A DNA stretch of 64,000 bases from Bradyrhizobium erythrophlei (GTDB lineage Bacteria > Pseudomonadota > Alphaproteobacteria > Rhizobiales > Xanthobacteraceae): contig NZ_LT670818.1 in assembly GCF_900129505.1 (NCBI RefSeq), positions 6,109,001 to 6,173,000 on the forward strand. Reading direction: 5' to 3'. This document shows, one piece after another, positions 19,273 to 38,444 of the stretch (position 1 is its first letter; every line of letters starts with the position of its first letter). A program made the position numbers and the translations under genes. Below the pieces are notes generated by a model. The model was given only the letters and a program-made list of their open reading frames with translations. It made no database searches and was not told where the DNA came from.

Positions 19273-19482
19273 CCCGACGGGCAAATCACCAAAAGTCTGT
19301 CCATCCCCTCGCGCAAAAATATTCCGCTTAACACGTCGGGCAAATCAGTGATTTTAATCCGCGCGTCTCACCCGAAAGAGGGGCGGCTCGCGATCGTCAC
19401 GAACGTTGCGGTGAGATGCGGTGGACGCTGAGGTCATGAAGACGAACGTGGCTTAAGCGGACGGCGAAGTCGTGTGGTCCTG
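19273..19482. repeat. Left half of the interrupted intergenic repeat
   Basis: Matches 8021-8251 of the uninterrupted copy: CCCGACGGGCAAATCAC at the start, then GTCTCACCCGA.AGAGGGGC and GATCGTCACGAACGTTGCGG, and ends exactly with GGCGAAGTCGTGTGGTCCTG at the att core. The remainder of the repeat resumes at 38433 on the other side of the island. Confidence 0.85.
19471..19482 (+). other. attL core
   Basis: CGTGTGGTCCTG, preceded by the chromosomal repeat (GGCGAAGT) and followed by island sequence (TAGTCCAG). Identical 12-mer at 38433-38444 (attR) and in the uninterrupted repeat at 8240-8251. Confidence 0.8.
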
Positions 19483-20050
19483 TAGTCCAGTGATTTTTTC
19501 GACGTGCGAAAAGTGATAGAAGCCCGTAAAAATCAGGTACTTATCCGACATGTGCTGAAAAACAAACGGCACGCTCTTTTCCGGGCAGGCCCCAATAGGC
19601 CCTAGACCGCTTGACCCTTGAAAGGGGACATCGAACGCTCGCACGGCGATGTCTGCTTTGTGCCATCACCGGACTCCTGCATCGCAGCAATTGTGTCCTC
19701 TTCGATCACCTTGCCGGGCGCGCCTGACGAGCAGTGCTGGAACGAGATCAGGCGTCGCCGACGGTTACTTTCCCCGCGCGTGCTGTCGAACACGCTCAGC
19801 ACGGCAAGTGTCATGGCCTCAACACCGGTTTCAATGGTCGGCTTCGGCACCGGCGCGAATAAGGGCGAGTTGGTTGCCCGGCAATTGCAGGCCGTCGCCC
19901 TCGCGGGCCGCGCGGCGACGCGCTCCGGCTCATAGACGCCGGAAGAACATCGAGGGCACGCCGCCCGCATCTCGGCAGCCAATTTAGCCGCGCGGTCTTC
20001 TCTTAGACCGGACGCAACAGCGGACATCGCGCTTCGTAACCCGCTGCCCC
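19483..20050. other. Left end of island, no confident gene
   Basis: The 568 bp between attL and the zinc-ribbon gene contain a minus-strand open frame (19602-20027) whose N-terminus lies near the TGTCTGCTT-type repeat (19645-19662). I could not recognise a family, and the other strand is also open, so I do not call a gene. Confidence 0.4.
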
Positions 20051-20290
20051 CTATGCCGCCAGGGCAAAAAACCGGAAACCGGCTACCGCGAGGTTGTCGG
20101 GAGATACCTGAACCGGCTCGCTAACCGTCTCTGACTCTGCCAACAGAAGGCAGGTCGGACAGTTGAACAGATGCAGATTGGTTGCCGGGATAAATCTAAC
20201 AAGCTCCGACCGACACCACTGCATCTCGATGCCGCAGGTTGGGCAGGTTGGCGCTTCACGGTCTTCCAGCGAGTGCTTCAGTCTGTCCAT
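20051..20290 (-). CDS. Small zinc-ribbon protein
   Basis: A 79-aa protein with two CPTC knuckles (CPTCGIEMQWC near residues 15-25 and NCPTC near 43-47), the layout of a zinc ribbon. ATG at 20290 is preceded by GGGGAGGGTTGTG, a good ribosome site; the frame continues upstream without support. Similar short zinc-ribbon proteins are common in Bradyrhizobium accessory DNA; function unknown. Confidence 0.7.
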   Translation of the reverse strand: MDRLKHSLEDREAPTCPTCGIEMQWCRSELVRFIPATNLHLFNCPTCLLLAESETVSEPVQVSPDNLAVAGFRFFALAA

Positions 20291-20696
20291 CACAACCCTC
20301 CCCAGGTCGAGTGATGAAAGCCCCAAGCCCAACAGGCAAAGCCTTGAGTCGCAGGTTTGACGCGTTATCTGCTACCTTGTTCACGACTTTTTCTAGGCGT
20401 CTTCTAGGCATCACTCGGACTGACCGTCGCCTGTTCCGGGAGGAGAACCCACGGTCTATGCAGCGAAAGTGCGTAGTGCGGCGGTCATCAACTTCACATA
20501 GGCAACACGACTCTTCTTGTTGGCGAATGCTACGGCCGCCGCTCGACGCCGAGCTTGCGCACGTGGCGGATGACTAGCCTTTACGAACAAATTAACTTCT
20601 GGTCAGGGTCAAAAGGCGACATTCCAACGTGACCAGCGCATGTCTGCTTCGCCCCAAAAGCAGAAACGGCTGGTTTTGGCATAAGCCCACGACGGA
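20291..20696. other. Intergenic region in island
   Basis: No convincing gene. It contains a CATGTCTGCTTCGCCCCAAAAGCAGA element near 20638-20664 belonging to the TGTCTGCTT..AAGCAGACA repeat family, and an open plus-strand frame (20239-20577) with no recognisable protein character. Confidence 0.4.
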
Positions 20697-20975
20697 CTAG
20701 GCGAAGCAGCGACGGCCTTTGCCCCGGCCACGGTTCGGATTGAATTCATCGACCGCGTGCTGCCACGCGATGATCTCATCCTCAAACCAAACCCTGCGGT
20801 TCGGCGAGATGTAAGTCGATTTGGGAAACCGGCCTGCCTTTTCCATCCGGTAGAGCGTGGTGCGGCCGACCGGGACGATCTCCAAAACCTGCTTTTCGCT
20901 CAGCATGCGACGCGGCGCTGATTTATCCGGTGCCACATCTTCCGTTTCGGCCTTCGGTTGTCTCGCAGCGATCAT
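20697..20975 (-). CDS. AlpA-like regulator/excisionase
   Basis: A 92-aa winged-helix protein of the AlpA (phage P4-type) family: RRMLSEKQVLEIVPVGRTTLYRMEKAGRFPKSTYISPNRRVWFEDEIIAWQ carries the MerR-like HTH and the wing (residues 20-70). AlpA-like proteins activate integrase transcription or act as directionality factors. ATG at 20975 follows AAGGAGTTGCG. It is divergent from the second AlpA-like gene and primase, with about 340 bp of repeat-containing DNA between. Confidence 0.85.
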   Translation of the reverse strand: MIAARQPKAETEDVAPDKSAPRRMLSEKQVLEIVPVGRTTLYRMEKAGRFPKSTYISPNRRVWFEDEIIAWQHAVDEFNPNRGRGKGRRCFA

Positions 20976-21089
20976 CGCAACTCCTTACCGTCAACCTATC
21001 AGGCCAACCGCAAAATCTCATTCGACCGTGTTATTTGGATTTGTGCATCCCACGCCACTCCGCGCAATCCACCTACAGAACGCCGCGCG

Positions 21090-21214
21090 CAAATTCCGTT
21101 CGATAACTACGTCGCAGGCCAGCGTTGCAACTGCCGATGCTCCTGATCTGTGAACAGCAATCGCGAATAGGCAACTTATCAACGGCAATTGCGCCAAATA
21201 GCGTTCGATAACTA
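21090..21214 (+). repeat. Two 20-bp direct repeats in the control region
   Basis: CAAATTCCGTTCGATAACTA (21090-21109) and CAAATAGCGTTCGATAACTA (21195-21214) differ at two bases and are 105 bp apart, in the divergent region between the two AlpA-like genes. They could be binding sites for an AlpA-like protein or replication-initiation iterons for the primase downstream. Confidence 0.6.
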
Positions 21215-21318
21215 TCTTCCCAAATCCCGAAAATGCTCTAGCTAGGACGCGCCCTGACGTGATGGGGCGCACGTCGAAATGCATTGGCGTGCTCACTCTA
21301 GAAGAAGGAGCGCGACTA

Positions 21319-21588
21319 ATGTCTCGCAAACTGCTTTTGTTTCCTGAACTGCGCGACCGCGGCGTTCCGTTTGGCCGCCGACACGTAGATCGTCTCGAAG
21401 CCGAAGGCAAATTCCCTAAACGCGTGCCCATCGGCATGCGTCGCGTCGGTTGGGTTGCCGCCGAGATCGATGATTGGGTGAACGCCGCGATCTCCGCGCG
21501 CGCGCAGCAGCCGGAAAACCGCGGCTCGCAAACTGCTCGCTCCATACGCGGCTGCGACCAGTCAGTCACCATCAGTTCGTTCATCTAG
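21319..21588 (+). CDS. Second AlpA-like DNA-binding protein
   Basis: An 89-aa protein: LLFPELRDRGVPFGRRHVDRLEAEGKFPKRVPIGMRRVGWVAAEIDDWV is the AlpA/helix-turn-helix_17 pattern. The start ATG follows AAGGAGCGCGACTA; the in-frame ATG at 21259 lacks a ribosome site. It stands directly before the primase-helicase, separated by the hairpin at 21598-21628. Carrying two AlpA-like proteins on one element suggests one excision factor and one transcription factor. Confidence 0.82.
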   Translation: MSRKLLLFPELRDRGVPFGRRHVDRLEAEGKFPKRVPIGMRRVGWVAAEIDDWVNAAISARAQQPENRGSQTARSIRGCDQSVTISSFI

Positions 21589-21597
21589 AACGCAAAA

Positions 21598-21628
21598 CCC
21601 CTAGGGCCTCGGGAAAGGCCGCTAGGGG
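21598..21628 (+). terminator. Hairpin between alpA-like and primase genes
   Basis: CCCCTAG (21598-21604) pairs with CTAGGGG (21622-21628) and an inner GGCCT/AGGCC stem extends it, with a short GGGAA-type loop. No U-tract follows, so it may be an attenuator, processing or pause site rather than a full terminator. Confidence 0.55.
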
Positions 21629-21661
21629 CGTAGATTTCTGTGAACTCTGGAAAGATCACCC

Positions 21662-23983
21662 ATGTTTGATACCACACAGACCGACATCATTGCAAAGCGC
21701 TTTGCGGACTTTGCGGCCAGCTCTGCCGAGTCCATCGCCAGCGCCCCCCTGTACGAGCCGTGGGAGAAATGGCCGCGCTCCGGCACGCCGGAAGCCATTG
21801 CACTCCAGTACACTCAGCGCGACTGGAACCCTGTGCCGATTGCGTTTCGGCAGAAAAAGCCGACCGGCAATGATTGGCAGCATCGCGTCATTACCGGAAG
21901 CCAGGTTCACCGCTTCTTCGGCGACAAGCCGCAGAACATCGGTGTGCAGCTCGGCCTGAAGTCGCGCGGGCTGACCGATATTGATCTGGACTGCAACGAA
22001 GCCATTGTGATCGCGTCGGCAGTGTTGCCGCCGACCACCGCGATCTTCGGTCGGGCGTCGAAGCGCAACAGTCACTTCTTGTATTACACGACGCTGGCCG
22101 CCAAGCAGGACAAGGCTGTCCTGCAGTTCAAGGACCCGGTTACTAAGGCAATGTTGCTTGAAGTCCGTATTGGCGGAGGTGACAAGGGCGCGCAAACCGT
22201 GTTCCCCGGTTCCGTACATGAGGACAGCGGCGAACCGATCAAATGGGAGCAAGACGGGGACCCGGAGCAGGTTGATGGTGAGGAGCTCGTGCGCCTCGCC
22301 AAGCGGCTCGCAGCGCTTTCGTCGTTCGCGCGCAATTGGCCTGCCGAAGGCGGCCGCCATGATGCGGCGCTGACCATTGGCGGCTTTCTCGCCCGGTGCG
22401 GGTTTGATCTCGCCTACGTCAAGCTGTGCGCCGAGTGGGTCGCCCGGGCAGCGAACGATGAAGATTGGCGTGATCGCATTAGAGCCGCTCACGACGCGGC
22501 AATTGCCTATCAGGGAGGCGACCGGACGCGCGGCTACCCTGCGATGAAGGAGCTGTTTGGCGAGAAGATCGCCGACCAGGCTGTCGAGTGGCTGGATTAC
22601 AAAGGAGCGCGTGAGGACGAACGTCAATCCGGGTTTCGTGATCAGGGTAATGGGGGGCGTTCCGCCGCTTCGGTGGCAGCCCCCAACGATATCGTGACAG
22701 AAGACAGCGCCGCACAGGAATTTGTGGACCAACACGGCAATGCTCTCCGTTACTGCCACACGCGAGGCTCTTGGTATCAATGGAATGGCACCTGCTGGAA
22801 GCTGGATGGCACCGGCCGCGCGTTTGACTTCGCTCGCAAGTTGGCCCGTCGGCTTTCGGAGGATCAGGACGTTCGGAAGCGCTACATTACCAACAAGACC
22901 AACTTCTCCGCTGGCGTCGAACGCTTTTCGAAGCACGATCAGACGGTTGCCGTGACGAGCGATTATTGGGACGGCGATCCGTGGTTGCTCGGCACGCCGG
23001 GAGGCACCGTCGATCTGCGGACCGGCAAGTTGCGCCCCAGCTCGCCTCAGGACGGCATCACGAAAACCACCGCCGTGTCCCCGGACAACAGCGGTTGTCC
23101 GCTCTGGCTCGCCTTCCTCAAGGAGGCGACCAACGGCGATGATGGTCTGATCCGCTTCTTGCAGCAGTGGTGCGGCTATTCACTGACCGGCGTCACGCTG
23201 GAGCACGCCTTGCTGTTCGTCTACGGCACGGGCGGCAATGGCAAGAGCGTGTATCTCAACACCACCACGTGGATCTTGAAGGACTACGCCGTCGCCTCCG
23301 CAATGGAGACGTTCACCGCCTCCAACAATGACAAGCATCCGACCGACCTCGCGATGCTGTGCGGTGCCCGGTTGGTGACGGCATCGGAGACGGAGGCAGG
23401 CCGCGCCTGGGCCGAAGCCCGCATCAAGCAGATGACCGGCGGTGACCCCATCACGGCCCGTTTCATGCGCCGCGACTTCTTCACCTATGTCCCCCAGTTC
23501 AAGCTGACCATCATCGGCAATCACAAGCCGACCCTGAACAACGTCGATGAGGCGGCACGCCGCCGCTTCAACATCGTGCCTTTCATCCACAAGCCCTCCG
23601 AGCCCGACCGGCAGCTTCCCGAAAAGCTGATGGCCGAAGCCCCTGCCATCCTGCGGTGGATGATCGACGGCTGCCTCGACTGGCAGGAGAACGGCCTTGT
23701 CCGTCCTACCAGCGTGATCGAGGCGACCGAGGAGTACTTCAGCGATCAGGAGGTCTTCCCGCGCTGGCTGGAGGAGGAATGCATCACGGGTGGCACCGTC
23801 TCCGAAGCCAGCAGTGTGCTCTACCGCGCTTGGTCGGAGTATGCACGGTCAGTCGGCGCTAAGCCCGGCACGCAGGCCGACTTCAAGGAAAGCATGCGCA
23901 AGGCGGGGTTCGCTTATCGCAAGCGGAACAACGTGCGGGAGTTTTGCAGCGTTAAGCTGAAAACGACCGACGTGGATGAGTAA
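21662..23983 (+). CDS. P4-type primase-helicase (prim-pol + SF3)
   Basis: A 773-aa replication protein. The N-terminal bifunctional primase/polymerase domain (about 45-220) has the catalytic DIDLD at 106-110 and SHFLYY at 137-142. A D5-N/primase-linker region follows, then an SF3 helicase with Walker A GTGGNGKS (about 522-529), a Walker B/SETEAGRAWAE region and the sensor IIGNHKP (about 617). The C-terminal EEYFSDQEVFPRWLEEE segment is usual for phage/plasmid primases of the P4 family. It supports autonomous replication of the excised element. Start ATG follows GGAAAGATCACCC. Intact. Confidence 0.93.
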   Translation: MFDTTQTDIIAKRFADFAASSAESIASAPLYEPWEKWPRSGTPEAIALQYTQRDWNPVPIAFRQKKPTGNDWQHRVITGSQVHRFFGDKPQNIGVQLGLKSRGLTDIDLDCNEAIVIASAVLPPTTAIFGRASKRNSHFLYYTTLAAKQDKAVLQFKDPVTKAMLLEVRIGGGDKGAQTVFPGSVHEDSGEPIKWEQDGDPEQVDGEELVRLAKRLAALSSFARNWPAEGGRHDAALTIGGFLARCGFDLAYVKLCAEWVARAANDEDWRDRIRAAHDAAIAYQGGDRTRGYPAMKELFGEKIADQAVEWLDYKGAREDERQSGFRDQGNGGRSAASVAAPNDIVTEDSAAQEFVDQHGNALRYCHTRGSWYQWNGTCWKLDGTGRAFDFARKLARRLSEDQDVRKRYITNKTNFSAGVERFSKHDQTVAVTSDYWDGDPWLLGTPGGTVDLRTGKLRPSSPQDGITKTTAVSPDNSGCPLWLAFLKEATNGDDGLIRFLQQWCGYSLTGVTLEHALLFVYGTGGNGKSVYLNTTTWILKDYAVASAMETFTASNNDKHPTDLAMLCGARLVTASETEAGRAWAEARIKQMTGGDPITARFMRRDFFTYVPQFKLTIIGNHKPTLNNVDEAARRRFNIVPFIHKPSEPDRQLPEKLMAEAPAILRWMIDGCLDWQENGLVRPTSVIEATEEYFSDQEVFPRWLEEECITGGTVSEASSVLYRAWSEYARSVGAKPGTQADFKESMRKAGFAYRKRNNVREFCSVKLKTTDVDE

Positions 23984-24595
23984 GCGGAGTTAGTGTGGCA
24001 GGCGTGGCAAGCGTGACGGCTCTTTCTATTAGCTCCTACACGCACGCGCGTGTGGAGGACTATAAGGGGGGAGCCTGTCACGGTTGTCACGGTTGCCACG
24101 CAGCGGCCGCACAGAAAGCCGTTCCCGGGCGGGTCCTTCCTGAAAGGGGCGCTGGGCGGGTCACGCCGCAGCGCAATACAAAAATAGTGATAGCCCGGCA
24201 TTGGGGCCTTGATAAGAAAAATGGCGACAACGGCTGACGCTGCGGCGATATCCAGCTCGCGTTGCGGACCACGCGAACAACGCCAGCAAATATTTTTTTA
24301 AAGAAGCTGTTTGCGCTGATCATTACCACCGACAATAGAGCAGCCTTGAACCGGCTCACAAATTTCATGTCTAAACTTGGGTAATCGGACATTTTGTCCG
24401 GTTTGTACTCGGTCGCGAGCTTCGTCCGACGTATTGACCCATCCAGTTGCTCAGGTGTTAAACGCGCCGAGCAGCGGGCGAGCGCCCGATGCTAACCCAA
24501 GAACTCCTCACGTGTGGGACTCCGAGAGCAGTAGCTCTATCGGCGAGCAAGAGCCTGTGTCCCACGTGAGCCGGTCAAGCATACGGAGCGAAGAA
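23984..24595. other. Gap after primase with inverted repeats
   Basis: No confident gene in 612 bp. It holds tandem-like GTCACGGTTGTCACGGTTGC (from about 24078), a CGGACATTTTGTCCG palindrome (24386-24400) and an inverted pair CTCACGTGTGGGAC (24507-24520)/GTCCCACGTGAG (24559-24570), both arms containing CACGTG, ending 25 bp before the next start. An 80-codon frame from a GTG at 23995 is possible but has no recognisable character. Confidence 0.5.
24507..24570 (+). promoter_or_regulatory. Inverted repeat upstream of the small-gene operon
   Basis: CTCACGTGTGGGAC and GTCCCACGTGAG flank 38 bp. The arms are complementary except for two extra bases in the left one. Position immediately ahead of the operon 24596-27411 suggests a regulator site or leader hairpin. 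Confidence 0.5.
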
Positions 24596-24943
24596 ATGGA
24601 CAATACCAAGACAGCTAGAAGTGCAATTGGAGCGCTTAAGACCGCTGCAGAGGAACTGGACGAGAAGGCAGGCTATCACGCGGGACGGTTTTGGGCCGAG
24701 AACGTAGCGGAACGTGGTTGGTTAGCGCGGCTGCGGGAGGTCGCGGGCGCTCGGGGCACAACCGCTCTGGACGCACTCCGCAAAGCCATTGACCCGAATA
24801 ACGAACTGAATGACGCCAAGTTGGCGGAGACCTGCTTTGGTGACGACGCCGATGATCATGATTTTTCGGCGCGTTATATCGAGAGCTTTGTCAAAGGAGC
24901 GGGGGAGTTCTTCGAGGAAATCGAGCCTGCTATCCCATTCTGA
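24596..24943 (+). CDS. Hypothetical helical protein
   Basis: A 115-aa acidic, mostly helical protein (MDNTKTARSAIGALKTAAEE...; C-terminal acidic tail GAGEFFEEIEPAIPF). ATG preceded by GGAGCGAAGAA. The stop overlaps the next start (TGATG), so it is translationally coupled to 24943-25329. Family not recognised; first gene of an operon that runs to the terminator at 27464. Confidence 0.65.
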   Translation: MDNTKTARSAIGALKTAAEELDEKAGYHAGRFWAENVAERGWLARLREVAGARGTTALDALRKAIDPNNELNDAKLAETCFGDDADDHDFSARYIESFVKGAGEFFEEIEPAIPF

Positions 24944-25329
24944 TGTCCCGTTCTCTGAAACTTGCCGACGAGCTGTTGAGCTTTGCTGATCGCTTCGCCA
25001 ATCGACTGCGACAACTTGAGCCTCATGGCGATGTTATCGACCAAATCCTCGCCGGCGGTCTCTTGACGACCGAGCAGGCAGCGGACGTGTGTGAACGCGA
25101 CAAAGAAACGATCCGCCGCTGGTGCGAGGATGCCGATCAGGAGGGACGACCGCTCGGCATAAAGCTGGCAAAGCTCTGGCTTGTCGGCACTGACCGGCTG
25201 TTCGAGTATGTCGAGCAGCATCAAGACAAGCATGCGCGTCTAGTCGCCGAGAGCCGGGCAAAGAAATACGCGCTGATGTGGTCATCGCCACAACAATCCT
25301 TGTCAAATCTGCCCGGGGCCACAGACTGA
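24943..25329 (+). CDS. Helix-turn-helix DNA-binding protein
   Basis: A 128-aa protein. LTTEQAADVCERDKETIRRWCEDADQEGRPLGIKLAKLWLVGTDRLFEYVEQH (residues about 40-93) matches the MerR/excisionase-type HTH with its wing. The N-terminal helical region (MSRSLKLADELLSFADRFANRLRQL) may mediate dimerisation. Coupled to the preceding gene through TGATG. Probably a regulator within the element. Confidence 0.7.
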   Translation: MSRSLKLADELLSFADRFANRLRQLEPHGDVIDQILAGGLLTTEQAADVCERDKETIRRWCEDADQEGRPLGIKLAKLWLVGTDRLFEYVEQHQDKHARLVAESRAKKYALMWSSPQQSLSNLPGATD

Positions 25330-25367
25330 TCCTTCGCAAACGATACCGGGTGCCCTAGACTCTCGGC

Positions 25368-26321
25368 ATGGCACTCTTCAAGCGAAAATCTAAAATGGAA
25401 AAATTGCAAAAGCACCTCACCGAGCTGCGTTCGCGCGCAGCCGCGCTCTCGGACAAGCGTGCGTCCGCGGAGACTGCTCTCGCGGAGGCGATGGTCGACC
25501 GCGAAAAGCACATGCTCACGGGTGACCTCGCCGATGAGCAGACCGCTCACAAGCTGCAGGCAAAGGTCGATAGTTATCAGTCGCAGTGGAGTGGCATTGC
25601 CGCTGCGCTTGTAGCGCTGCAGCCGCAGATCACCGACATCGAACAGAAGATCGCGGCCGAACAGGAGGGCATCCAGCGTGCTGCGGCTGCCAACAAGCTC
25701 GACCGGCAGATCGCGGCCATCGAGACGGCGCTGCCGAAATACCTGGAGCACTCGCGCGTTCTCGCCGACGCGCTGGCCGAGATCGCTCACTGGCACTTCG
25801 AGAGCGGTCAGATGACGAGCTTCATCGTCGGTGACATGGGCCAGGTCGAGGTCGCGGCGGGCTTCGCACTGGCGGAGCTGAAAAGGATGCCAGGCGCAAT
25901 CCGCGAGGGTCAGCAGGCAATCCCGCGCGATGTGCCGCAGTCCGGGCTTGTCGCAGAGATCAAACCGCTGCCGCCGACGCAGACGGTGTTCATGTTGCGG
26001 TCCGCGAAATACCACGACCATGACGGTCGTGCGCGGTTCGCGGGCCAGTACGAAGATGCCATGATGCCGGTGCCCACCGCACAGCGGGCCTTGCACCATG
26101 GCGTGGCGGTATCGGTGGCCGATCCGCGCCGCGCTCAGCTCCGTGGTGCGCGCGGCGGTGACTTCAACCCCTCCGCATCTGACGTTGTCGATCTTGACGC
26201 CATCGAGGAGCCCAAGGGCGTGCCGTACATTGGCTCCGATATTGCTGACCCCGTTCTCCGCGCCGCCAATTTCCAGCCGCTTGATCGCGGGCCTGAGCGC
26301 ATGCTGAAGGTGACGCCGTGA
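25368..26321 (+). CDS. Coiled-coil protein, unknown function
   Basis: A 317-aa protein. Residues 10-115 are a charged, Ala/Glu/Gln-rich coiled coil (KLQKHLTELRSRAAALSDKRASAETALAEA...), a helical middle follows, and the last 120 residues are soluble and Pro-rich. It begins MALFKRKSKMEK. The gene stop overlaps the following GTG start (GTGA). No family recognised. Such proteins occur in the small-gene block of rhizobial prophage-like islands; a structural or scaffold role is only a guess. Confidence 0.7.
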   Translation: MALFKRKSKMEKLQKHLTELRSRAAALSDKRASAETALAEAMVDREKHMLTGDLADEQTAHKLQAKVDSYQSQWSGIAAALVALQPQITDIEQKIAAEQEGIQRAAAANKLDRQIAAIETALPKYLEHSRVLADALAEIAHWHFESGQMTSFIVGDMGQVEVAAGFALAELKRMPGAIREGQQAIPRDVPQSGLVAEIKPLPPTQTVFMLRSAKYHDHDGRARFAGQYEDAMMPVPTAQRALHHGVAVSVADPRRAQLRGARGGDFNPSASDVVDLDAIEEPKGVPYIGSDIADPVLRAANFQPLDRGPERMLKVTP

Positions 26322-26527
26322 AGGCCGCGCCTCCGGGCTGGGAGCCGCACACAATCATGTCTCGCATTGATGGCTGGGTTGTCGATCCCGAGAACGAGGA
26401 TCGCATCCCGCCCGTTATCGCCGAGATGATCGCTCGCGCAATGCCGGAGCCGAATGAGATCGAGGTGATCCGCGCGCCCATGATCGCAGGCCAGCGCGTG
26501 GTCGAGCGCGAGCACACGTATGAATAG
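26318..26527 (+). CDS. Small hypothetical protein
   Basis: A 69-aa protein from a GTG overlapping the upstream TGA. Sequence MKAAPPGWEPHTIMSRIDGWVVDPENEDRIPPVI..., acidic, without membrane segments. The tight overlap with genes on both sides argues that it is real. Function unknown. Confidence 0.6.
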   Translation: MKAAPPGWEPHTIMSRIDGWVVDPENEDRIPPVIAEMIARAMPEPNEIEVIRAPMIAGQRVVEREHTYE

Positions 26528-26642
26528 CAGCTATCGACAGTACCTGGAGGCTGCGCCGCTAATCGCAGTTGGGCGGCGTACGGGTTTGTCGGTGAACGCG
26601 CCCAACTTGTCCCGTCCGGCGAGCTGGGCGCGCGAGATGTAG
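26520..26642 (+). CDS. Very small ORF filling the operon gap
   Basis: ATG at 26520 (overlapping the previous stop by 8 bp) opens 40 codons (MNSSYRQYLEAAPLIAVG...SWAREM) and ends at TAG 26640-26642, one base before the next ATG at 26644. The fit is exact on both sides, as in translationally coupled operons. No homology recognised. Confidence 0.5.
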   Translation: MNSSYRQYLEAAPLIAVGRRTGLSVNAPNLSRPASWAREM

Positions 26643-26643
26643 A

Positions 26644-30559: not shown

Positions 30560-30733
30560 TCGTTCACATACTGCAACAGGAGCAAGACTACGCGCCAATG
30601 ACGTCATCGAGTAAGACGGCAATGTCTGCTTGTGGCACTTTACGGACATGGCGCGATCCCCAACTTGAGTCCGCTGTGCGAGCAAAAGCAGACATCGGCG
30701 AGAGCAACTGAAATTGAACCGTGGCTGCGGTCC

Positions 30734-30889: not shown

Positions 30890-30976
30890 GCCGCACAATC
30901 CCAATGAGTTGGGTCGTGATAGCGAACGCAAGGCCAAAAAGCGGTCCGCGTCCGCCAATAGACCTTACTTGGCACC

Positions 30977-31207
30977 TCAGTCCAAAAGCCAGCCTTCTGC
31001 GGACACCGCCGCCCGGAAGGTTCGCCAAGCCCAAATTTCGCTTACGTCTGACGCGCACACGTTATCGAGTGCTTGCCTAGCTGCCTGCCAATGAGGTTTG
31101 GATTGATAGGAGAGCCGCAGGTGCGCCATGAATGAGTAGGCGTCATCGGCGCTCCTAATCCGATTAGCGCCCGACTCCGGCTTCAATTTCATTGGGGTAA
31201 AGGACAT
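30977..31207 (-). CDS. DUF982-like protein
   Basis: A 76-aa protein. SADDAYSFMAHLRLSYQSKPHWQAARQALDNVCASDVSEIWAWRTFRAAVSAEGWLL follows the DUF982 pattern common in rhizobia (aromatic-rich helix pair, A-x-x-x-F-x-x-A). Start either 31207 or the ATG at 31192. Unknown function. Confidence 0.55.
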   Translation of the reverse strand: MSFTPMKLKPESGANRIRSADDAYSFMAHLRLSYQSKPHWQAARQALDNVCASDVSEIWAWRTFRAAVSAEGWLLD

Positions 31208-31362
31208 TTGCGGTCCGGTACGTTACCCAATTGAACTGTTGCCCATCATCTTATCGCGGCCTGACGCCGTCTGTCGACAAAGACCTAAGTCGGCAAGCCT
31301 ACCCGCCACATGATGAGCGGGTCGCTGTGGTATTTCAATACGTAAGGGCGCGCCCTTGGCTC

Positions 31363-31388
31363 AGGCCGCCTCAGGTGGCGGCCTTTTT
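31363..31388 (+). terminator. Rho-independent terminator
   Basis: AGGCCGCC (31363-31370) pairs with GGCGGCCT (31377-31384), then a T-run. It overlaps the end of the minus-strand gene 31388-31627; no clear plus-strand gene precedes it, so its transcript is unidentified (possibly a small RNA). Confidence 0.75.
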
Positions 31389-31627
31389 CATGACAGCCTT
31401 GACAGCGGGCCACGCGGCGCATGGTCTTCACCGCCCGTCAGATGATCTTCGATGTTATCGGCGATCTCGTCGCAGACTGATGCCAACGCAAGCAGTTCGG
31501 TTTTAATGAAAGGATCATCGGCCCGCTCGACAAGTTTCCGATACACGGCGGCTTGGCTCTGTAGATAGTCAAGCCAATCATGGATGCCGAACACAGTACC
31601 GTTGAGCTTGGAGTGGTCACAATCCAT
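31388..31627 (-). CDS. Small helical protein (paralogue of 30734-30889)
   Basis: A 79-aa protein: DWLDYLQSQAAVYRKLVERADDPFIKTELLALASVCDEIADNIEDHL, then a longer tail. Strong similarity to 30734-30889 shows a duplication within the island. Starts MDCDHSKLN at 31627; no strong ribosome site. Confidence 0.6.
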   Translation of the reverse strand: MDCDHSKLNGTVFGIHDWLDYLQSQAAVYRKLVERADDPFIKTELLALASVCDEIADNIEDHLTGGEDHAPRGPLSRLS

Positions 31628-31731
31628 GGTGGAGCTTTCACTAGAACGCCGAATGCGTGAAGTTGATGTAGGTTCGCAATCTGCCGACACCATTAAATTG
31701 AGTTTTAGAAGCCAACTGTTTTGAAATGGCG

Positions 31732-31820
31732 AGTGGCCTAATTCGGCCAGTACTGGCCTGTTTTGACCCTCAGTGGCCTATTGAATTTCGCAGTGGCCTA
31801 ATTTGATTTACAGGGCCGTA
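31732..31820 (+). repeat. 20-bp-period array (AGTGGCCTA)
   Basis: Five units start exactly 20 bp apart: AGTGGCCTA at 31732, ACTGGCCTG at 31752, AGTGGCCTA at 31772 and 31792, AGGGCCGTA at 31812, with AT-rich intervals (AATTTGATTT, TTGAATTT). The spacing equals about two DNA turns, as in iterons or arrays of regulator sites. It precedes the 37-codon gene at 31948. Confidence 0.75.
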
Positions 31821-31947
31821 AATTTGTCGCGCCCCGTTCTTAGTTTCGCCCACGTCCCCTAAATACACTTTTGTACAATTCTGCCCGGAGCGAAATCCCG
31901 GTTCCCGCGTCATGTATCTGGATGGGACAATTGCAGGGGGAAGTGCA

Positions 31948-32061
31948 ATGCCTGACAAACAGATCAATTCGGAAGGCGTCATGGCCGGTCTTTATCTCGG
32001 CATCGCCGTTGGTGGCGTAAACGCCCTGGTCGCGATGGGGCTAGTTATCGCGTTTATGTAA
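31948..32061 (+). CDS. Very small membrane peptide
   Basis: A 37-codon ORF: MPDKQINSEGVMAGLYLGIA then VGGVNALVAMGLVIAFM, i.e. a short soluble head and one hydrophobic helix. ATG follows GGGGGAAGTGCA, an excellent ribosome site, and the stop runs directly into the terminator at 32062-32089. The compact promoter-array/ORF/terminator unit supports a real transcript. Function unknown. Confidence 0.65.
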   Translation: MPDKQINSEGVMAGLYLGIAVGGVNALVAMGLVIAFM

Positions 32062-32089
32062 GGGGCCGCCTCAGTCGGCGGCCTCTTTC
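32062..32089 (+). terminator. Rho-independent terminator
   Basis: GGCCGCC (32064-32070) and GGCGGCC (32077-32083) form the stem, followed by TCTTTC. Ends the small peptide gene at 31948-32061; nearly the same hairpin as 31363-31388. Confidence 0.8.
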
Positions 32090-32192
32090 ATTCGACCCCG
32101 GCTGTCTGCGTTCAGAATAACAATGTGCCGCTCTGGATCGACCGCGCTTGTCGAGAGAAACGCCGATGACGAGCAGCGTCCTCTTAGGAAAT

Positions 32193-32434
32193 GATTAGCT
32201 CATATCAAATGGACGGTCCCACGGCACGGCCTTGGGATGGATGGGCTCGGCGATGGCGTTGGGCGCGGTCGTCAGGAAGCCGTAGACGAGATGCGGACCG
32301 GGGTATCGGCTTCGACTTGGTGCCACGGTCGCCCCTCGGTGACCGCGTTCCGCACGACCGGTGCGGGATAATCGGGAAAGACGCCGGGCATCGGAGGTAG
32401 GTTGCCGACGTAGCGATTGATGACTCGGAACAGC
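32193..32434 (-). pseudogene. Decayed SRAP/YedK (SOS response-associated peptidase) gene
   Basis: The minus strand encodes IRALFRVINRYVGNLPPMPG and VFPDYPAPVVRN, which match the region after the N-terminus of rhizobial SRAP proteins, then after an internal deletion and frameshift PGPHLVYGFLTTAPNAIAEP and IHPKA, the C-terminal region before the usual MPVIL. The N-terminal catalytic Cys2, the central domain and the C-terminus are missing. SRAP proteins crosslink abasic sites in ssDNA. The remnant abuts the stop of the HEPN gene at 32442. Confidence 0.8.
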
Positions 32435-32441
32435 GCTCGGA

Positions 32442-33611
32442 TTACCAATCCATATTCGCTGCACGGTCAAATTGGTGGCTCAGATAATCGATTAATGTTG
32501 TCATTTCATCGATTGAGAGCATCGCGCGAGAGTACGAGCCATCGGACACACGGGTCAATATTACGGGCAATTGGCTTTCGTGAATGTACAGTTTGGCCGG
32601 GGCCCGAGGTCCGCTCCATAGATGAGTTAGGAATGACTTTATCGTGCTGAGTGCTGTAGCGTCGTCGAACGACAAGCGCTCGGTCATTCTTACCCTGCGC
32701 TTGGTCGCGCGATGAGGCAGCATGAGCGGAACTGCCCCAGCACCCGAATGAAATTCAAATGCCTCGCCATCTTTTCCGAATGCGCCGTGCGCCACAAAAT
32801 TTCTGAGTGTCTGCCGAAGCTCGATGAGCTTGTCATAAAACTCCTTGGAAACCGGATCGGTAAGATCGAAAGAAGCCTTGAACTTCTCGGACCAGTCCGC
32901 CCTAGCAAGCTGAGCGATGCCAACGCCTGTCGTAACTTTGCTACGCAATATAGCGATGTGGATAAAAATATGTTCGGTCCAACTAAAGAAAGACTCAATT
33001 GCAGCAAGGGCCAGCCATCCCGCTTCAATCCGCAACCCGAAAGAGGGACGAGAGACCGACTCCCATCCGTTTCCTTTCTTGACGATCCTTTCGTCCTTCC
33101 GCCGTTCGGCTTCTTCCGCTTTTTTCTCATACTCGCTCTGAAAGAAAGTAAATCGGTGATGCAGAGCCGCACTGTTGTTTACAACATTGAGCTTAGAACT
33201 TTGAAGCGCCTCATCCGCGAGCCAATCGAAATATGGTTCCGCGGTCTTGATCGCTTTCTTTATGTACTTAACGATTTCTTTAGCGTCTTCCTCATCTGCT
33301 TCGGGATTTCGAACAAACACGCCAACACCGAACTTCCGGTGCTCGATCAAAAAAGCGCGACCGTGATAGTCAACAGGTACTGACCACGATAATTTTTCGA
33401 ACTGACCCAAATTCTTGAAGCCCAATAGGTCTACCAATACGAAGTAGATTAGGTAATAAGGCGGCAGATCACGACTAGCTTCGGAGCGCTGCGCATCAAA
33501 CAGGAGGTTTTGGTCGGCTGAAGTGGACTTGCTGACAGGGAGCACTGGGCCGAGAGCGCGTCTAGCGGCCTCGCGAACGCGCTCTAGCTCCGCAGGAAGC
33601 TGTTTTGGCAT
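32442..33611 (-). CDS. HEPN-motif protein in island cargo
   Basis: A 389-aa protein (from ATG 33611 after GGAAAGGTGATCTA). Residues 270-275 read RNFVAH followed by G, the R-N-x3-H catalytic motif of HEPN ribonucleases, in helix ELRQTLRNFVAHGAF. Upstream are helical segments and a charged linker EKKAEEAERRKDERIVKKG (about 163-180); the region 200-225 (ALAAIESFFSWTEHIFIHIAIL) is hydrophobic and probably part of the HEPN bundle. Visibly less GC-rich than the chromosomal genes, indicating transfer. It is divergent from the tcmP/gp68 pair, a layout suggestive of a defence or abortive-infection module. The exact family is not recognised. Confidence 0.75.
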   Translation of the reverse strand: MPKQLPAELERVREAARRALGPVLPVSKSTSADQNLLFDAQRSEASRDLPPYYLIYFVLVDLLGFKNLGQFEKLSWSVPVDYHGRAFLIEHRKFGVGVFVRNPEADEEDAKEIVKYIKKAIKTAEPYFDWLADEALQSSKLNVVNNSAALHHRFTFFQSEYEKKAEEAERRKDERIVKKGNGWESVSRPSFGLRIEAGWLALAAIESFFSWTEHIFIHIAILRSKVTTGVGIAQLARADWSEKFKASFDLTDPVSKEFYDKLIELRQTLRNFVAHGAFGKDGEAFEFHSGAGAVPLMLPHRATKRRVRMTERLSFDDATALSTIKSFLTHLWSGPRAPAKLYIHESQLPVILTRVSDGSYSRAMLSIDEMTTLIDYLSHQFDRAANMDW

Positions 33612-33796
33612 TAGATCACCTTTCCCCCGGCACCTATGCGATGGCGGATCGCTCGCCGAAATCTTGCTGGTCCGCAGCGCCACTAGATGGCTCCGCTTGT
33701 ACGGATAAGCGCAGCTGATCAGACCTTCCCGCACAGCCCCGGCGTTAACCCTCTGGTTGTGGCGATGTGCTTTATTCCATTCTTTGGGAATAACCA

Positions 33797-34633
33797 ATGG
33801 CCAAAAAGCCAGTAGTTTTAGACCCAGCTGACGGGTTGATCGTGGATGAGGTCGGTGAATGGGCACCTAAGAAGCATGCTCGCGTGCAGCAATACATCGA
33901 AATCGCGAGCGCAACGCGAGCCAAGTATCTGCCCCCGCCATCATGGCGCGCCGGGGCAAGTTATATTGAACTATTTTCCGGCTCCGGCCGTTCGCTGATC
34001 AGGGGCACCAATCGCATTATCGATGGGAGCCCTGTCGTCGCCTACAACGCCGCGGAGGCCAGCGGCGTGCCCTTCACGAAAATCCATCTCAACGATTTTG
34101 ATGCGGCAAAATCGGCGGCCGTCGAGAAGCGTATTCGTACTCTAGGAGGCTCTCCGGTTTGCTACAACGACACGGCTGATGTGGCCGTTGATAAGATCGT
34201 CGCAGCAGTAAATCCGAAGGGACTCCATTTCGCCTTCTTGGACCCGTATAATCTTGAAGGGTTGTCGTTCGACATCATTAGGAAGCTGTCGAAATTGAAG
34301 GTCGATCTGCTCATTCATGTCAGCGTGCACGATCTTCAGCGCAATCTTGACGACTACAGCAGGCCCGGGGACGTCTTGGATACCTTTGCTCCTGGATGGC
34401 GCGATCAAGTTGACCCGAACCAATCGATAAACTCATTTCGGGCGGCGCTGATGGATTATTGGCTGGCCGAAATTCGGAAGCTGGGCAAATTGCCTGCAAA
34501 AGGCGTGGAGCTTGTTGAAGGTCCGACCGGACAGCGGCTTTATTGGCTCGTGTTTGCGAGTGAGCACGGCCTTGCGCGAAAGTTCTGGGAAGCAATCCGC
34601 GATCCCATGCGACAGACAACAATGGATTTCTGA
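33797..34633 (+). CDS. tcmP: Three-Cys-motif partner protein TcmP
   Basis: A 278-aa protein of the TcmP family. YIELFSGSGRS (residues 56-66) resembles the SAM-binding motif I of Rossmann methyltransferases and FAFLDPYNLEG (145-155) the motif IV D-P-Y, so a methyltransferase-like fold is inferred. TcmP proteins are known as regular neighbours of three-Cys-motif Gp37/Gp68 proteins, and here the next gene is exactly that, overlapping at the stop/start (TGATGG at 34632-34637). ATG after GGGAATAACCA. Confidence 0.9.
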   Translation: MAKKPVVLDPADGLIVDEVGEWAPKKHARVQQYIEIASATRAKYLPPPSWRAGASYIELFSGSGRSLIRGTNRIIDGSPVVAYNAAEASGVPFTKIHLNDFDAAKSAAVEKRIRTLGGSPVCYNDTADVAVDKIVAAVNPKGLHFAFLDPYNLEGLSFDIIRKLSKLKVDLLIHVSVHDLQRNLDDYSRPGDVLDTFAPGWRDQVDPNQSINSFRAALMDYWLAEIRKLGKLPAKGVELVEGPTGQRLYWLVFASEHGLARKFWEAIRDPMRQTTMDF

Positions 34634-35397
34634 TGGCTGACACCTCAATCGAATGGACCGACGCGACATGGAACCCGGTCGCTGGCTGCACGGTGATCTC
34701 TCCCGGTTGCACGAATTGCTATGCGATGCGGATGGCTGCCCGGTTAGATGCGATGGGTGTGAAGAAATATCACGGACTGACCCGCAAGAGCGGCAAGCGA
34801 GCGGTCTGGACCGGCAAAGTCAGGCTTGATCGCAAGGCGCTCGATATCCCTGCAGATTGGAAAAAACCGCGCCGGATTTTTGTGAATTCGATGTCGGACC
34901 TATTTCACGAAGCCGTTCCCGCGAAGTTTGTTGCCGCTGTCTGGCGTGCAATGGAGGCAACTCCGCAGCACACCTATCAAATTCTGACGAAGCGACCGGA
35001 TCGGATGGCGGAGATCACCGCATCGCTGCCAGTGCTGCCGAACGTATGGCTCGGGACAAGCGTCGAAAGCGCCGACTATCTGGGGCGCATTGACGACCTG
35101 CGTGGGGTCAATGCTGTTGTGAAGTTTGTTTCGTTCGAGCCTTTACTGGGCTCTGTGGCTGCAGCTGACTTGACTGGTATCCAATGGGCAATCGTCGGCG
35201 GCGAAAGTGGCCCGCGTGCGCGACCCATGGCAGAGGAATGGGTCGGTGAGATCGAGATGGCATGCCGCAAGGCAAGGGCGGCATTTTTCTTCAAGCAGTG
35301 GGGCGGCGTTCGCAAAAAGATCACCGGTCGGCACTATCGCGGGCGCACATTCGATGAGATGCCCCGCGGCGTAGTCGCGCCCGTAAACTGCCATTAG
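34633..35397 (+). CDS. Phage Gp37/Gp68 family three-Cys-motif protein (DUF5131)
   Basis: A 254-aa protein with WNPVAGCTVISPGCTNCYA: Cys19, Cys26, Cys29 form the C-x6-C-x2-C motif of the Gp37/Gp68 (DUF5131) family, reminiscent of a radical-SAM iron-sulfur site though with longer first spacing. Family strands follow: IFVNSMSDLFHE, YQILTKRPDRM, NVWLGTSVES, VSFEPLLG, WAIVGGESGPRARP, FFFKQWG. Overlaps tcmP by one base. The pair occurs widely in phages and mobile elements; its chemistry is not established. Confidence 0.93.
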   Translation: MADTSIEWTDATWNPVAGCTVISPGCTNCYAMRMAARLDAMGVKKYHGLTRKSGKRAVWTGKVRLDRKALDIPADWKKPRRIFVNSMSDLFHEAVPAKFVAAVWRAMEATPQHTYQILTKRPDRMAEITASLPVLPNVWLGTSVESADYLGRIDDLRGVNAVVKFVSFEPLLGSVAAADLTGIQWAIVGGESGPRARPMAEEWVGEIEMACRKARAAFFFKQWGGVRKKITGRHYRGRTFDEMPRGVVAPVNCH

Positions 35398-35438
35398 GTT
35401 AACGACCGCTTTTAGGCCCTGCATTCTGGAGAGAGTTC

Positions 35439-35933
35439 TTGACAAGAATGACAGACCCATTCGATGCGCTGCAATCGTTCCAACAGGCTCTTGTTGATGG
35501 TGAAATAGATCTGCAACGTGGACAAATTGATCCAGAACTTTTTGTGCACCTCGATCACCCCAATGGCCAACCAAGGTTCACCTATGTGCGTCTTCAGCGC
35601 CAGACGGTAACTGCGATGGTGAACTTCGCCATCAGTGATCCCATTGAGGGGGTTCGATGCTTCCAAATTGGGGTTGCCGTCCCGGAAGCATACCGCAGCC
35701 AACGGCGCGCCAAGTGCACTGTTGGTGCCGCTATTACTGAGTTGCAACACGGACTCGCGAGAAACAAAGTCTCCACGTTTTACGTGGAGGCGGTCGTCGG
35801 GATTGACAACGAGGCATCCAAGCATGTCGCCGCGGCGACTATCTCGACTACGCCCGTCGAGGTGACAGACCAAGTCTCAGGGCTTCCCGCACTCCATTAC
35901 GTTCGGAAGATCGGAGAGGTTGCTGCTGGCTGA
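35439..35933 (+). CDS. GNAT-like protein
   Basis: A 164-aa protein. FQIGVAVPEAYRSQRRAKCTVGAAITELQHGLARNKVSTFYVEAVVGIDNEASKHVAAATI is compatible with a GNAT acetyltransferase core (the R/Q-x-x-G/A region is degenerate, and the VxxxNxAS-x-x-VA element is typical). TTG start at 35439 has GGAGAG at the right distance; ATG at 35448 is the alternative. Possibly cotranscribed with the Gp37/Gp68 gene, 41 bp upstream. Assignment moderate. Confidence 0.55.
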   Translation: MTRMTDPFDALQSFQQALVDGEIDLQRGQIDPELFVHLDHPNGQPRFTYVRLQRQTVTAMVNFAISDPIEGVRCFQIGVAVPEAYRSQRRAKCTVGAAITELQHGLARNKVSTFYVEAVVGIDNEASKHVAAATISTTPVEVTDQVSGLPALHYVRKIGEVAAG

Positions 35934-35999
35934 CCATCGAAGCCTTCGCCTAGAAGCTGAAGCAGCGAATACGCCACGCCGCGCGGTGGCAGAGCCTCT

Positions 36000-36587
36000 T
36001 CATCGAGATGCCGCTACTCTCATCACAGGCGCGGGCTCGATGATGCAGTCGATGATCTTCGACGGCGGGATGTCGCCGCGATAGAACCTCCATGTTCGCA
36101 TCGCGCGTTGGATCATGATGTCATCAGGATCAGGCAGGTCGTCGATGCGGTGATGATTGGCGCGCAGCCATGGTCCGTACTGCTTCAGCTTGCGGTCGCT
36201 CGATGCGAGGCGAACCGTGAACCTCGCGAGCGGCTCCTCGCTGAAGGGTCTGAGCCATCGCTGGCTGCGGATCGGCGGTGTGTCTGGATGGCGCTGTAGT
36301 AACACCTCCAACTCGGCGTCGGTGATGGCTGAGGTCGGCGTGTCGCACAGGAAGACGGCGGGCGGGCCGAGGCCGATCATGCTCAGGCTGTCGCCGGTGT
36401 GGGTCGCCCGGAAACCCTCGCGCTTGATCGCTGCGACATTTTCAAGGATGGTGAAGTGATACAGGTTCGCGCGGCTGGCTCCTTCGCTGAGCGCAGAGAT
36501 GCAGGCGAAATTTGTTGTCAGTTTGTCTGGGGTACTATGCTGGTCGGTACGAGTTGACCTGCCTTCTTCCCCTTGCGATTGGGACAC
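36000..36587 (-). CDS. Possible ADP-ribosyltransferase-like protein
   Basis: A 195-aa protein. NLYHFTILENVAAIKREGF (residues 41-59) resembles the first core strand and helix of DarT-like and other ADP-ribosyltransferase-fold proteins (Y/L-H-x-T...I-x-x-x-G). The rest (SMIGLGPPAVFLCDTP, WLRPFSEEPLARFTVRL) is compatible with the beta core, but a clear catalytic Glu is not evident. Start assigned to GTG at 36587; the first 40 residues are low complexity and the true start may lie inside. If correct it could be a toxin-like cargo protein. Confidence 0.5.
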   Translation of the reverse strand: MSQSQGEEGRSTRTDQHSTPDKLTTNFACISALSEGASRANLYHFTILENVAAIKREGFRATHTGDSLSMIGLGPPAVFLCDTPTSAITDAELEVLLQRHPDTPPIRSQRWLRPFSEEPLARFTVRLASSDRKLKQYGPWLRANHHRIDDLPDPDDIMIQRAMRTWRFYRGDIPPSKIIDCIIEPAPVMRVAASR

Positions 36588-36841
36588 TATCGGGACACTG
36601 AGCGGTCTGGATGTTGATATCGCTCAGCTTTTTCGGTTCTCTAAGGTCCCACAGAGGGGGTGCTTCGCGCTGCTGTCTTTGTCAGCACTGCAACGATCTG
36701 CAGCACCGCGTCGGGCAAGGGGTACCATCCTCCGTGGGTCGCCTGAGCCGAACCTCGGCCAAGGCTTTAATCCACGGTGGATGATCTTCCATCGGTGTTT
36801 TAAACCAAGGCCCGACTTGGAGAATGGGCCCGGACTAACAG

Positions 36842-38233
36842 TCAGGCGACCAGACGCAGCGCGGTTTCAGCATGCGCCGCTGGTGTAGGCTCGCCGATGA
36901 TGCGTCGCAGCTCGGCTGCAACACCGTCCAGCACCGCACGCTTTTCCTTCATCCGCTTCGAGTGATTGTAGACCTTGCCGGTGACGCTGGGCACGATCTG
37001 CTCCTGTTTCCTGCTCGCGGCGTGATCGAGACACTTCGCGATCCATGCATCGTCAAAGCCGAGATCGCCCGCCAGTGTCGCCGCCGAGCGGCGCAGATCG
37101 TGCGGCGTGAACGGCCGCAGACCGAGCAGCGCGCAGATGCCCGGCGTTTTCACCTTGCCCTTGACCTTGGTGCCGCGCAGGGCCGTTGCCATGACCTTCC
37201 GGTTCATTGGCTGATCGCCAAGCGGACTGGCGAAAACGTATTGCTGCTCGTCGCTGATCAACGCTTCCCGAATGATCTCCACCGCCAGTTCGGAAAGCGG
37301 CTGCTGGATCACGCGGCGCTTCTTGACCCGCTTCAGCGGCACGTCAAAGCGCGGATTTTCGCCATCGAGATCGAACAGTTCATCGCGGTGCGCGGCCAGC
37401 AGTTCCCCCGAGCGCAGCATGGTGACCAGTTCGAATTTCAGCGCGAGACGGGTCTTGCGATCCCAAGGCAGGTCGTCCCGGTCGAGGCCGTGCCAGAAAA
37501 TCCTGATCTCGTCCTCGGAGAGAACGCGCGTGCGCGGATGCTCCGGGTCGAGCTTCGGCAGGTTGACGCAGGGGCTGGCGGTTACATAGTCGCGGCCCGC
37601 TTCCGCCGCCCAGTTGAACAGGCCCGAGGCGGCGCGCCGCATGTGGCGGGCGTTGGCTACCGACGGAACGCCGAGTTTGCCTGCAACGAGATCGTTCGAC
37701 AGCGTTGCAATGTCGTGCTTGGTGACTTCGCTGGCGATCTTCTTGCCGAGCCGCGGGCTGATAAAGCGCCGCAGGTGGCTGGCGACGTTGCCCCACGTTT
37801 CGATCCGGGGCCGCATTTCCCCATCCGGCTTGCGGACCGGCGTCTTCATCCACTCGATCCGCTCTTCGATGATCTCATCGACGGTCGTGCCCCGCTTGGC
37901 CTGCCGCACTTTCCGGTCGCGGAAGGTCTCGGCGAGTGCCGCAGCGCCCGTGCCCCGCAGGCCGTAGACCCGGCTGCGGGCGTCCTCGACGGCGAAGGTC
38001 GGACTGTAGACGCCAAGCCAGCCGGTGCGCTGCTTGCCGGTCTCTGGGTCGGTGAACTTGAACGAGAAGGTCGCCGCGCCAGCGGTGGTGATGCTGACGT
38101 AAAGGCCGGGGCATTTGCGGTCGTAGATTTTGACCCGCTCAGTGACCCGCTTCTCGCACATGCGGTCGGTGAGGATGACGCTGCCGCTGCGACCGCGTTT
38201 GCCAGCGGGTTCGCTGGTGATAGTCTCTGTCAT
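36842..38233 (-). CDS. Site-specific tyrosine recombinase (integrase)
   Basis: A 463-aa phage-type integrase with an N-terminal arm-binding DUF4102-like region (about 20-100), a core-binding SAM-like domain (about 115-225) and a catalytic domain. Catalytic residues: R274 in TMLRSGE, H378-x-x-R381 in HDLRRS, H404 in CLDHAA, nucleophile Y422 in GKVYNHS. ATG preceded by GGAGCCTGAAACC. It lies 200 bp from attR and is transcribed into the island, the standard arrangement. Full length, so the element may be able to excise. Confidence 0.93.
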   Translation of the reverse strand: MTETITSEPAGKRGRSGSVILTDRMCEKRVTERVKIYDRKCPGLYVSITTAGAATFSFKFTDPETGKQRTGWLGVYSPTFAVEDARSRVYGLRGTGAAALAETFRDRKVRQAKRGTTVDEIIEERIEWMKTPVRKPDGEMRPRIETWGNVASHLRRFISPRLGKKIASEVTKHDIATLSNDLVAGKLGVPSVANARHMRRAASGLFNWAAEAGRDYVTASPCVNLPKLDPEHPRTRVLSEDEIRIFWHGLDRDDLPWDRKTRLALKFELVTMLRSGELLAAHRDELFDLDGENPRFDVPLKRVKKRRVIQQPLSELAVEIIREALISDEQQYVFASPLGDQPMNRKVMATALRGTKVKGKVKTPGICALLGLRPFTPHDLRRSAATLAGDLGFDDAWIAKCLDHAASRKQEQIVPSVTGKVYNHSKRMKEKRAVLDGVAAELRRIIGEPTPAAHAETALRLVA

Positions 38234-38432
38234 GGTTTCAGGCTCCGTGAGGGTTTGGGACCACGGGCTCGGCCTTGGGCCTCTCAGTCCTTGGAGGGTC
38301 GAGAGAGGCTTAGGGCCGGGCCCTGCTTTTGGCGAAACGCGCTGAAACGCCTCGGATCAGGCTAGTCGAAAAGCGCTTGTTTTAAAGGGTTTTCTTAGTT
38401 TCGGCGTGTTTCACCGAATACCAAAATATAGA

Positions 38433-38444
38433 CGTGTGGTCCTG
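38433..38444 (+). other. attR core
   Basis: CGTGTGGTCCTG, preceded by island DNA (AATATAGA) and followed by the right half of the chromosomal repeat (ACGCCCCGACGCTGG). Direct repeat of attL at 19471-19482. Confidence 0.8.

Follow-up and report, generated by a model that had tools for sequence, protein, structure and literature searches.

A 19-kb genomic island of Bradyrhizobium erythrophlei lies within one copy of a dispersed, structured intergenic repeat

Introduction

How does a 19-kb block of DNA come to lie between the two halves of an intergenic repeat, and what singles out the place where it goes in? The question is raised by a stretch of 64,000 nucleotides from Bradyrhizobium erythrophlei (contig NZ_LT670818.1, positions 6,109,001 to 6,173,000; hereafter the window), in which an element with a tyrosine integrase gene near one end is bracketed by two repeat halves while an intact copy of the repeat lies in the same window. 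Integrases of the textbook kind act at one conserved site or a few. Here we report that this element is, with high confidence, a genomic island that was placed by its own tyrosine integrase into one copy of a Bradyrhizobium-wide structured intergenic repeat. We count as observed the junctions, an element-free site in relatives, a target common to an integrase clade, a twin insertion, insertions in both orientations and covariation within the target; from these we infer that the island may be active at present and may move between cells.

Results

Junctions of the element

The exact 12-bp core CGTGTGGTCCTG was found on the plus strand of the window at 8240, 19471 and 38433 and at no other site on either strand, where a random 12-mer would be expected 0.008 times. 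BLASTN aligned the left flank (19314-19482) with 8083-8251 at 87% identity (E ~1e-50), an extra 28-bp piece of the left flank (19262-19289) with 8010-8037, and the right flank (38430-38755) with 8237-8553 at 84% (E ~1e-81). The two flanks are the left and right halves of the repeat that is intact at 8021-8553, and both end at the core. The longest exact run common to both junctions was 12 bp, and the outer flanks, when joined, were identical to the intact copy around the core at 105 of 132 bases without a gap. The exact core search and the flank alignments bear out a sequence-only reading of this DNA, in which repeat halves were said to flank the element with the core at these three positions. 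The features of the locus are as follows; R1 denotes a covariance model of the repeat.

19471..38432, no strand assigned: integrated element, 18,962 bp with one core counted, from junction comparison
8021..8553, plus strand: intact dispersed repeat copy, the comparator and a potential attB, with the core at 8240-8251 (R1 match 8240-8468, 250.9 bits)
19262..19482, plus strand: left half of the disrupted repeat copy (BLASTN to 8010-8037 and 8083-8251)
19471..19482, plus strand: attL core CGTGTGGTCCTG (exact match)
36842..38233, minus strand: tyrosine integrase of 463 amino acids, with R274, H378, R381, H404 and Y422 conserved (PF00589, E 5e-13)
38421..38432, plus strand: integrase-side attP arm CCAAAATATAGA, kept in relatives
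38433..38444, plus strand: attR core CGTGTGGTCCTG (exact match)
38433..38757, plus strand: right half of the disrupted repeat copy, with its structured domain whole (R1 match 38433-38668, 250.3 bits)

The element thus has a directly repeated attachment (att) core at both ends and an integrase gene adjoining one of them, about 200 bp from attR. Besides the PF00589 match, the five listed residues were invariant in all 46 relatives whose att site lies in the repeat, and we take the R, H-x-x-R, H and Y among them to be the catalytic residues of tyrosine recombinases. A 497-amino-acid open reading frame (ORF) that overlaps the integrase on the plus strand had no Pfam match. ARAGORN detected no tRNA in the 64-kb window; the core does not lie in a tRNA gene, and the element is therefore not an island of the tRNA-targeting kind.

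The dispersed repeat and its fold

The genome of the window is a single contig of 9.18 Mb, in which the repeat, about 500 bp long and intergenic, is dispersed in copies 75-85% alike. A DNA search of this genome gave at least 55 matching pieces (40 of 120 candidates scored), and R1 gave at least 148 copies, a lower bound since 150 candidates were scored. The core with two further bases, GTGTGGTCCTGRC, occurred 53 times, the attR of the element included, against once for the reversed control. Across the genus, CGTGTGGTCCTGRC was present in 249 of 265 genomes with 1 to 87 copies each, and its reversed controls occurred at most once per strand; outside the genus, the 13-base pattern was found 0-4 times per genome in 284 genomes of the family. 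R1 was run on 27 genomes, picked mostly for having few or no cores, and counted 135 copies in G063, 111 in G088, 38 in G027 and 24 in G193. Around 28 copies the neighbouring genes showed no fixed orientation, and a crude frame caller found no long coding-like frame through any of them.

No Rfam family reached the gathering score in the window, the repeat included, and for the repeat nothing credible appeared at relaxed thresholds. We considered whether it is a known repetitive extragenic palindromic (REP) sequence of Bradyrhizobium and rejected this, as the sequences of Br-REP1 and Br-REP2 in the accessible part of PMC5082802 differ from it; neither published consensus, with mismatches allowed, was found within 7901-8700 or along the plus strand of the window. 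No published description of the repeat was found in the literature searched, a partial set from which most subscription papers were missing. It may be a structured element, of RNA or DNA, that has yet to be described.

We aligned 35 copies of the 3' part of the repeat (alignment A1), comprising 19 of 28 copies from the window's own genome, three of the 28 being misanchored, and 16 of 31 copies from att sides. The A1 fold has 59 pairs, 24 of them with compensatory changes. Paired cells amounted to 96.9% against 87.1% in shuffled alignments, two-sided changes to 196 against 56.3 and the covariation score to 0.351 against 0.158; none of 500 shuffles reached any of these values, although the structure was derived from the alignment on which it was tested and the shuffles do not keep relatedness. 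Sliding the structure along A1 lowered the pairing to 36-54%. The first domain of the 3' part is closed by a helix (columns 2-12 with 131-141), and the att core forms its 5' strand. The 5' half of the repeat folds more weakly, with two-sided changes in 6 of 22 pairs.

Integrase relatives and their targets

Integrase matches at E <= 1e-20, distant relatives included, were present in 95 of the 265 genus genomes, and a scan across species genomes turned up 43 loci, of which 42 belong to Bradyrhizobium. In most close relatives CCAAAATATAGA is followed by the core and the right half of the repeat about 200 bp from the start codon (type A). In type B the same attP arm adjoins CCACACGACTTCGCCGT or a close variant of it, which is the same repeat in the opposite orientation, and in type C, represented by three integrases, CCTGTGGTTATGGGTCCC takes the place of the repeat core. 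The identity block of type A is AGGACCACACG, i.e. CGTGTGGTCCT, and that of type B is AAGTCGTGTGG; because the two overlap in CGTGTGG, these 7 bp probably form the crossover region.

A tree was built from 65 integrases after matches spanning fewer than 370 residues and exact duplicates had been dropped, and 55 of them formed one clade (support 100/99). The labels used in the tree were 34 A, 9 B, 3 C and 9 without an assigned target. In five of these nine the type A core was later located within the repeat at a distance of 2.0-3.4 kb upstream of the integrase, a reassignment that the tree labels predate, so that the final totals are 39 A, 9 B, 3 C and 4 unassigned, and 48 of the 55 have their att site in this repeat. 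Same-core relatives occurred in both orientations and down to about 45% integrase identity. Type B requires four changes on the tree, at least three of them on starred branches, and type C is a single clade within A (85/98, not starred), with some placements resting on long branches. The expectation of the sequence-only reading that homologous integrases would sit at the same core therefore holds for the clade and needs refinement in two respects: the orientation has flipped more than once, and one sublineage sits at another repeat.

The sublineage with the distant att sites (L145-L148 and L150, with L232-L236) carries 2.0-3.4 kb of other genes between the integrase and the att site. A related integrase, 54% identical, lies beside baseplate genes on the viral contig L231, and given this contig some members of the sublineage may be prophages. 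The att sites of the viral contigs L230 and L231 were not found in about 3 kb upstream, and the far ends of two phage-like elements gave no match in 19 kb each.

Integrases labelled as tRNA- or surE-associated fell outside the 55-member clade. Nine Bradyrhizobium relatives below 40% identity were examined: six adjoin a tRNA-like 3' end, two an apparent surE start (judged by eye) and one was unassigned. ARAGORN found no whole tRNA beside these outgroup integrases. Three of the six tRNA-like ends were identical to the 3' end of a complete tRNA-Pro elsewhere in the same genome; a reading of such ends as tRNA-Ser-like was rejected, a complete tRNA-Pro having been found in all three genomes tested. 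One of the three belongs to a second integrase in the window's own genome (L144, G000:C1:7177444-7178697), which is 34-37% identical and adjoins a copy of the tRNA-Pro(GGG) 3' end. The complete tRNA-Pro (L240) is about 405 kb away from this integrase, and a very large island or a rearrangement may separate the two.

A second repeat as target

The type C integrases are found in G053, G109 and G071, genomes without an exact core and without an R1 match. R1 had no match in six of the 27 genomes, these three and G212, G247 and G076, and the latter three also lacked an integrase match at E <= 1e-20; G206 had one weak R1 match (E 0.0015). The type C target TGTGGTTATGGGTC lies within a small dispersed palindromic repeat, TGTGGTTATGGGTC...GGGACGACG (L203-L222), and has 30, 12 and 19 copies in G053, G109 and G071, respectively. 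It is not special to these hosts, because seven other genomes searched hold 2-25 copies each. Since the three type C integrases form one lineage, the switch to the second repeat is one event rather than three. The far ends of the type C elements were not found in G071 (33 kb) or in the fetched parts of G053 and G109.

Insertion sites and the empty site

G193 contains two elements, housed in two repeat copies that are separated by about 4.4 Mb; counted from the core, the elements agree at every base for 13,576 bp, and their flanks differ on both sides. For a count of sites, flanks of at least 250 bp were deduplicated from 77 to 46 and had to align beyond the repeat tail, and BLASTN then placed the 46 flanks in 38 insertion sites, an upper bound, since some orthologous flanks may have diverged too far to be joined. 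An earlier clustering in which the tail was counted had chained 17 flanks into one site and was rejected, as the tail itself had joined them. Seven groups of two or three genomes have an insertion site in common. Together with the 53 core-plus-two-base matches in the window's genome, the 38 sites and the twin in G193 agree with the prediction made from the sequence that such an element would have many possible sites per genome. Of 22 fetched elements besides that of the window, 8 could be delimited at both ends (13.6-31.6 kb), and all eight show the two repeat halves.

The joined flanks were compared with 30 loci that carry the left flank of the window, one of which is the window itself. In G155 a single alignment of 84.5% runs across the junction without an element, and in G167 a weaker alignment of 71% also covers it without an element. 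An empty attB, in which the repeat is continuous in an element-free strain as the sequence-only reading had anticipated, was thus seen in G155 and less clearly in G167. At 27 loci no alignment crossed the junction. In nine of these the left-flank gene is followed by the gene that in the window lies to the right of the element, and no repeat match was seen between the two genes. Relatives therefore differ in whether they have the repeat at this locus at all.

Cargo of the element

Guanine plus cytosine make up 58.4% of the element and 62.6% of the window outside it. Its other genes that were assigned or compared are as follows.

21662..23983, plus strand: P4-type primase/helicase (PF08706, PF09250, TIGR01613)
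24943..25329, plus strand: small protein, helix-turn-helix-like by eye, with no match in Pfam, NCBIfam, PADLOC or PHROGs
25368..26321, plus strand: ORF without a confident family, with relatives in two other elements (family scan and element comparison)
33797..34633, plus strand: TcmP-like protein (TIGR04474)
34633..35397, plus strand: DUF5131 protein (PF07505)

The primase is of the P4 type by TIGR01613 and PF08706. A P4-like satellite would need such a primase throughout the family together with capsid-hijacking genes, and neither pattern was found here: a primase relative was present in one of seven other complete elements, and no PHROGs match to capsid or packaging families appeared among the 10 window proteins scanned. 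Nor did Pfam reveal relaxase or conjugation genes among 19 proteins of the window's element, the integrase and one reading of its overlap. The integrase is the sole gene common to all eight complete elements compared, the window's included.

The overlapping TcmP-like and DUF5131 genes (33797-35397) match PADLOC candidate defence models, PDC-M41A weakly and PDC-M41B strongly. At 26644-27411, a protein of 255 amino acids has a HEAGH motif by eye, as in metalloproteases, and no Pfam or NCBIfam match.

Discussion

The observations are best explained by conservative site-specific recombination, in which the integrase would join attP (AAAATATAGA/CGTGTGG/TCCTG) to the core CGTGTGGTCCTG of a repeat copy. 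Because the element would bring its own copy of the core, the 3' part of the repeat would become whole again at attR, where R1 scores 250.3 bits against 250.9 bits in the intact copy, and this restoration of the 3' domain may be why the insertion is tolerated. Any of dozens of repeat copies could then act as attB.

Several points weigh against this conclusion. Four of the 55 clade rows have no assigned target: L074 ends with its contig, L152 has a decayed core, L037 has other sequence beside the integrase, and in L035 (G237:C1:6896593-6897984), whose integrase is 82% identical, the attP arm stands beside sequence without the core, which may reflect a secondary site or a rearrangement. Both ends were not found in 14 of the 22 fetched elements, although 20 kb or less had been fetched for four of these. 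The empty site rests on two relatives, with G167 at only 71%, and 27 of the 30 left-flank loci gave no alignment across the junction.

Could the bracketing of the element be the work of a transposase, or of homologous recombination among copies of the repeat, with the integrase as a passenger? The repeats are numerous and 75-85% alike and homologous exchange is possible, but each flank is one repeat half only and both end at one shared base; in many genomes the conserved arm abuts that base, a pattern that follows the integrase tree, and the eight complete elements compared have no other gene in common. We regard such an origin as highly improbable. An assembly artefact or chance deserves next to no weight: multicopy repeats can mislead assemblers, yet the genome is one contig and the same architecture recurs in many genomes, some of them complete. 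That one hotspot copy is favoured and the many sites are noise is hinted at by the seven groups of two or three genomes with a common site, but 46 flanks in up to 38 sites and the two sites held at once by G193 make this quite unlikely.

How the integrase recognises the repeat is a separate matter. It might bind a folded single strand, as integron integrases do with attC, and the strong structure of the target and the position of the core as one strand of a closing helix would suit this idea; clean direct repeats, found with insertions of either orientation, agree instead with double-stranded attP x attB, and we think the folded strand very unlikely. We lean towards the simpler possibility that the integrase reads only a short sequence, frequent by chance, to which the fold and function of the repeat are irrelevant, as the orientation tracks the direction of the 7 bp in types A and B in the manner of ordinary double-stranded recombination. 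That the core is part of a conserved helix strand, and that the type C target is palindromic too, speaks for a role of the fold without being decisive, since chance or conservation could explain both.

Among known systems, the CTnDOT- and Tn916-type tyrosine recombinases use several sites per genome with relaxed specificity. They resemble the present case in having more than one insertion site per genome and differ from it in that the present core is fixed and it is the target that exists in many copies. Integron integrases likewise combine a tyrosine recombinase with structured, repeated sites, but an IntI-type layout was not seen here and the insertions fit double-stranded recombination. Tyrosine-integrase genomic islands that sit at tRNA genes, among them those of Bradyrhizobium USDA6 and USDA110 according to the accessible part of PMC3927601, have in common with ours an integrase beside one att site, a direct-repeat core, lower guanine-plus-cytosine content and varied cargo; the difference is the target, here a multicopy dispersed intergenic repeat and not a tRNA gene. 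As far as the accessible text goes, the survey in that paper counted islands through tRNA duplications.

The nearest precedent that we checked, within the accessible parts of PMC3898611 and PMC4471427, is the neisserial filamentous phage Nf/MDA, which integrates at dRS3 repeats with a recombinase listed as a transposase. There too a phage-type element enters a dispersed intergenic repeat of hundreds of copies, but dRS3 measures 20 bp, whereas the structured repeat found here extends over about 500 bp and is used by a tyrosine integrase. No case of a tyrosine integrase at dispersed repeats was found in the literature searched, with the same partial coverage as above. The REPs described for Bradyrhizobium in the accessible parts of PMC5082802 (Br-REP1 and Br-REP2) and PMC3733652 (CGTC and GTAG REPs) are also dispersed, palindromic and intergenic, and the type C target resembles a small palindromic repeat ending in GACGACG; the main repeat differs from them in its length of about 500 bp and in its sequence.

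A more speculative picture, which we offer tentatively and hold to be possible though doubtful, is that structured, perhaps transcribed genus-wide repeats form a chromosome-wide docking array for a guild of islands and phage-like elements. The integrases would have followed the repeat, flipping orientation on the same 7 bp and moving to a second palindromic repeat where the first is lacking, and recombination between repeat copies, carried out by these integrases, may remodel the chromosome.

With a target repeat that can reach about 150 copies in a genome, this integrase clade comes near to targeted transposition while keeping tight specificity. With two orientations on one core and a second repeat as target, a change of integrase target becomes testable within one genus, and the switch to the second repeat was seen only in hosts where the first was not detected. 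The finding also points to a strongly covarying structured repeat, and to Bradyrhizobium islands of a class that would escape surveys based on tRNA genes.

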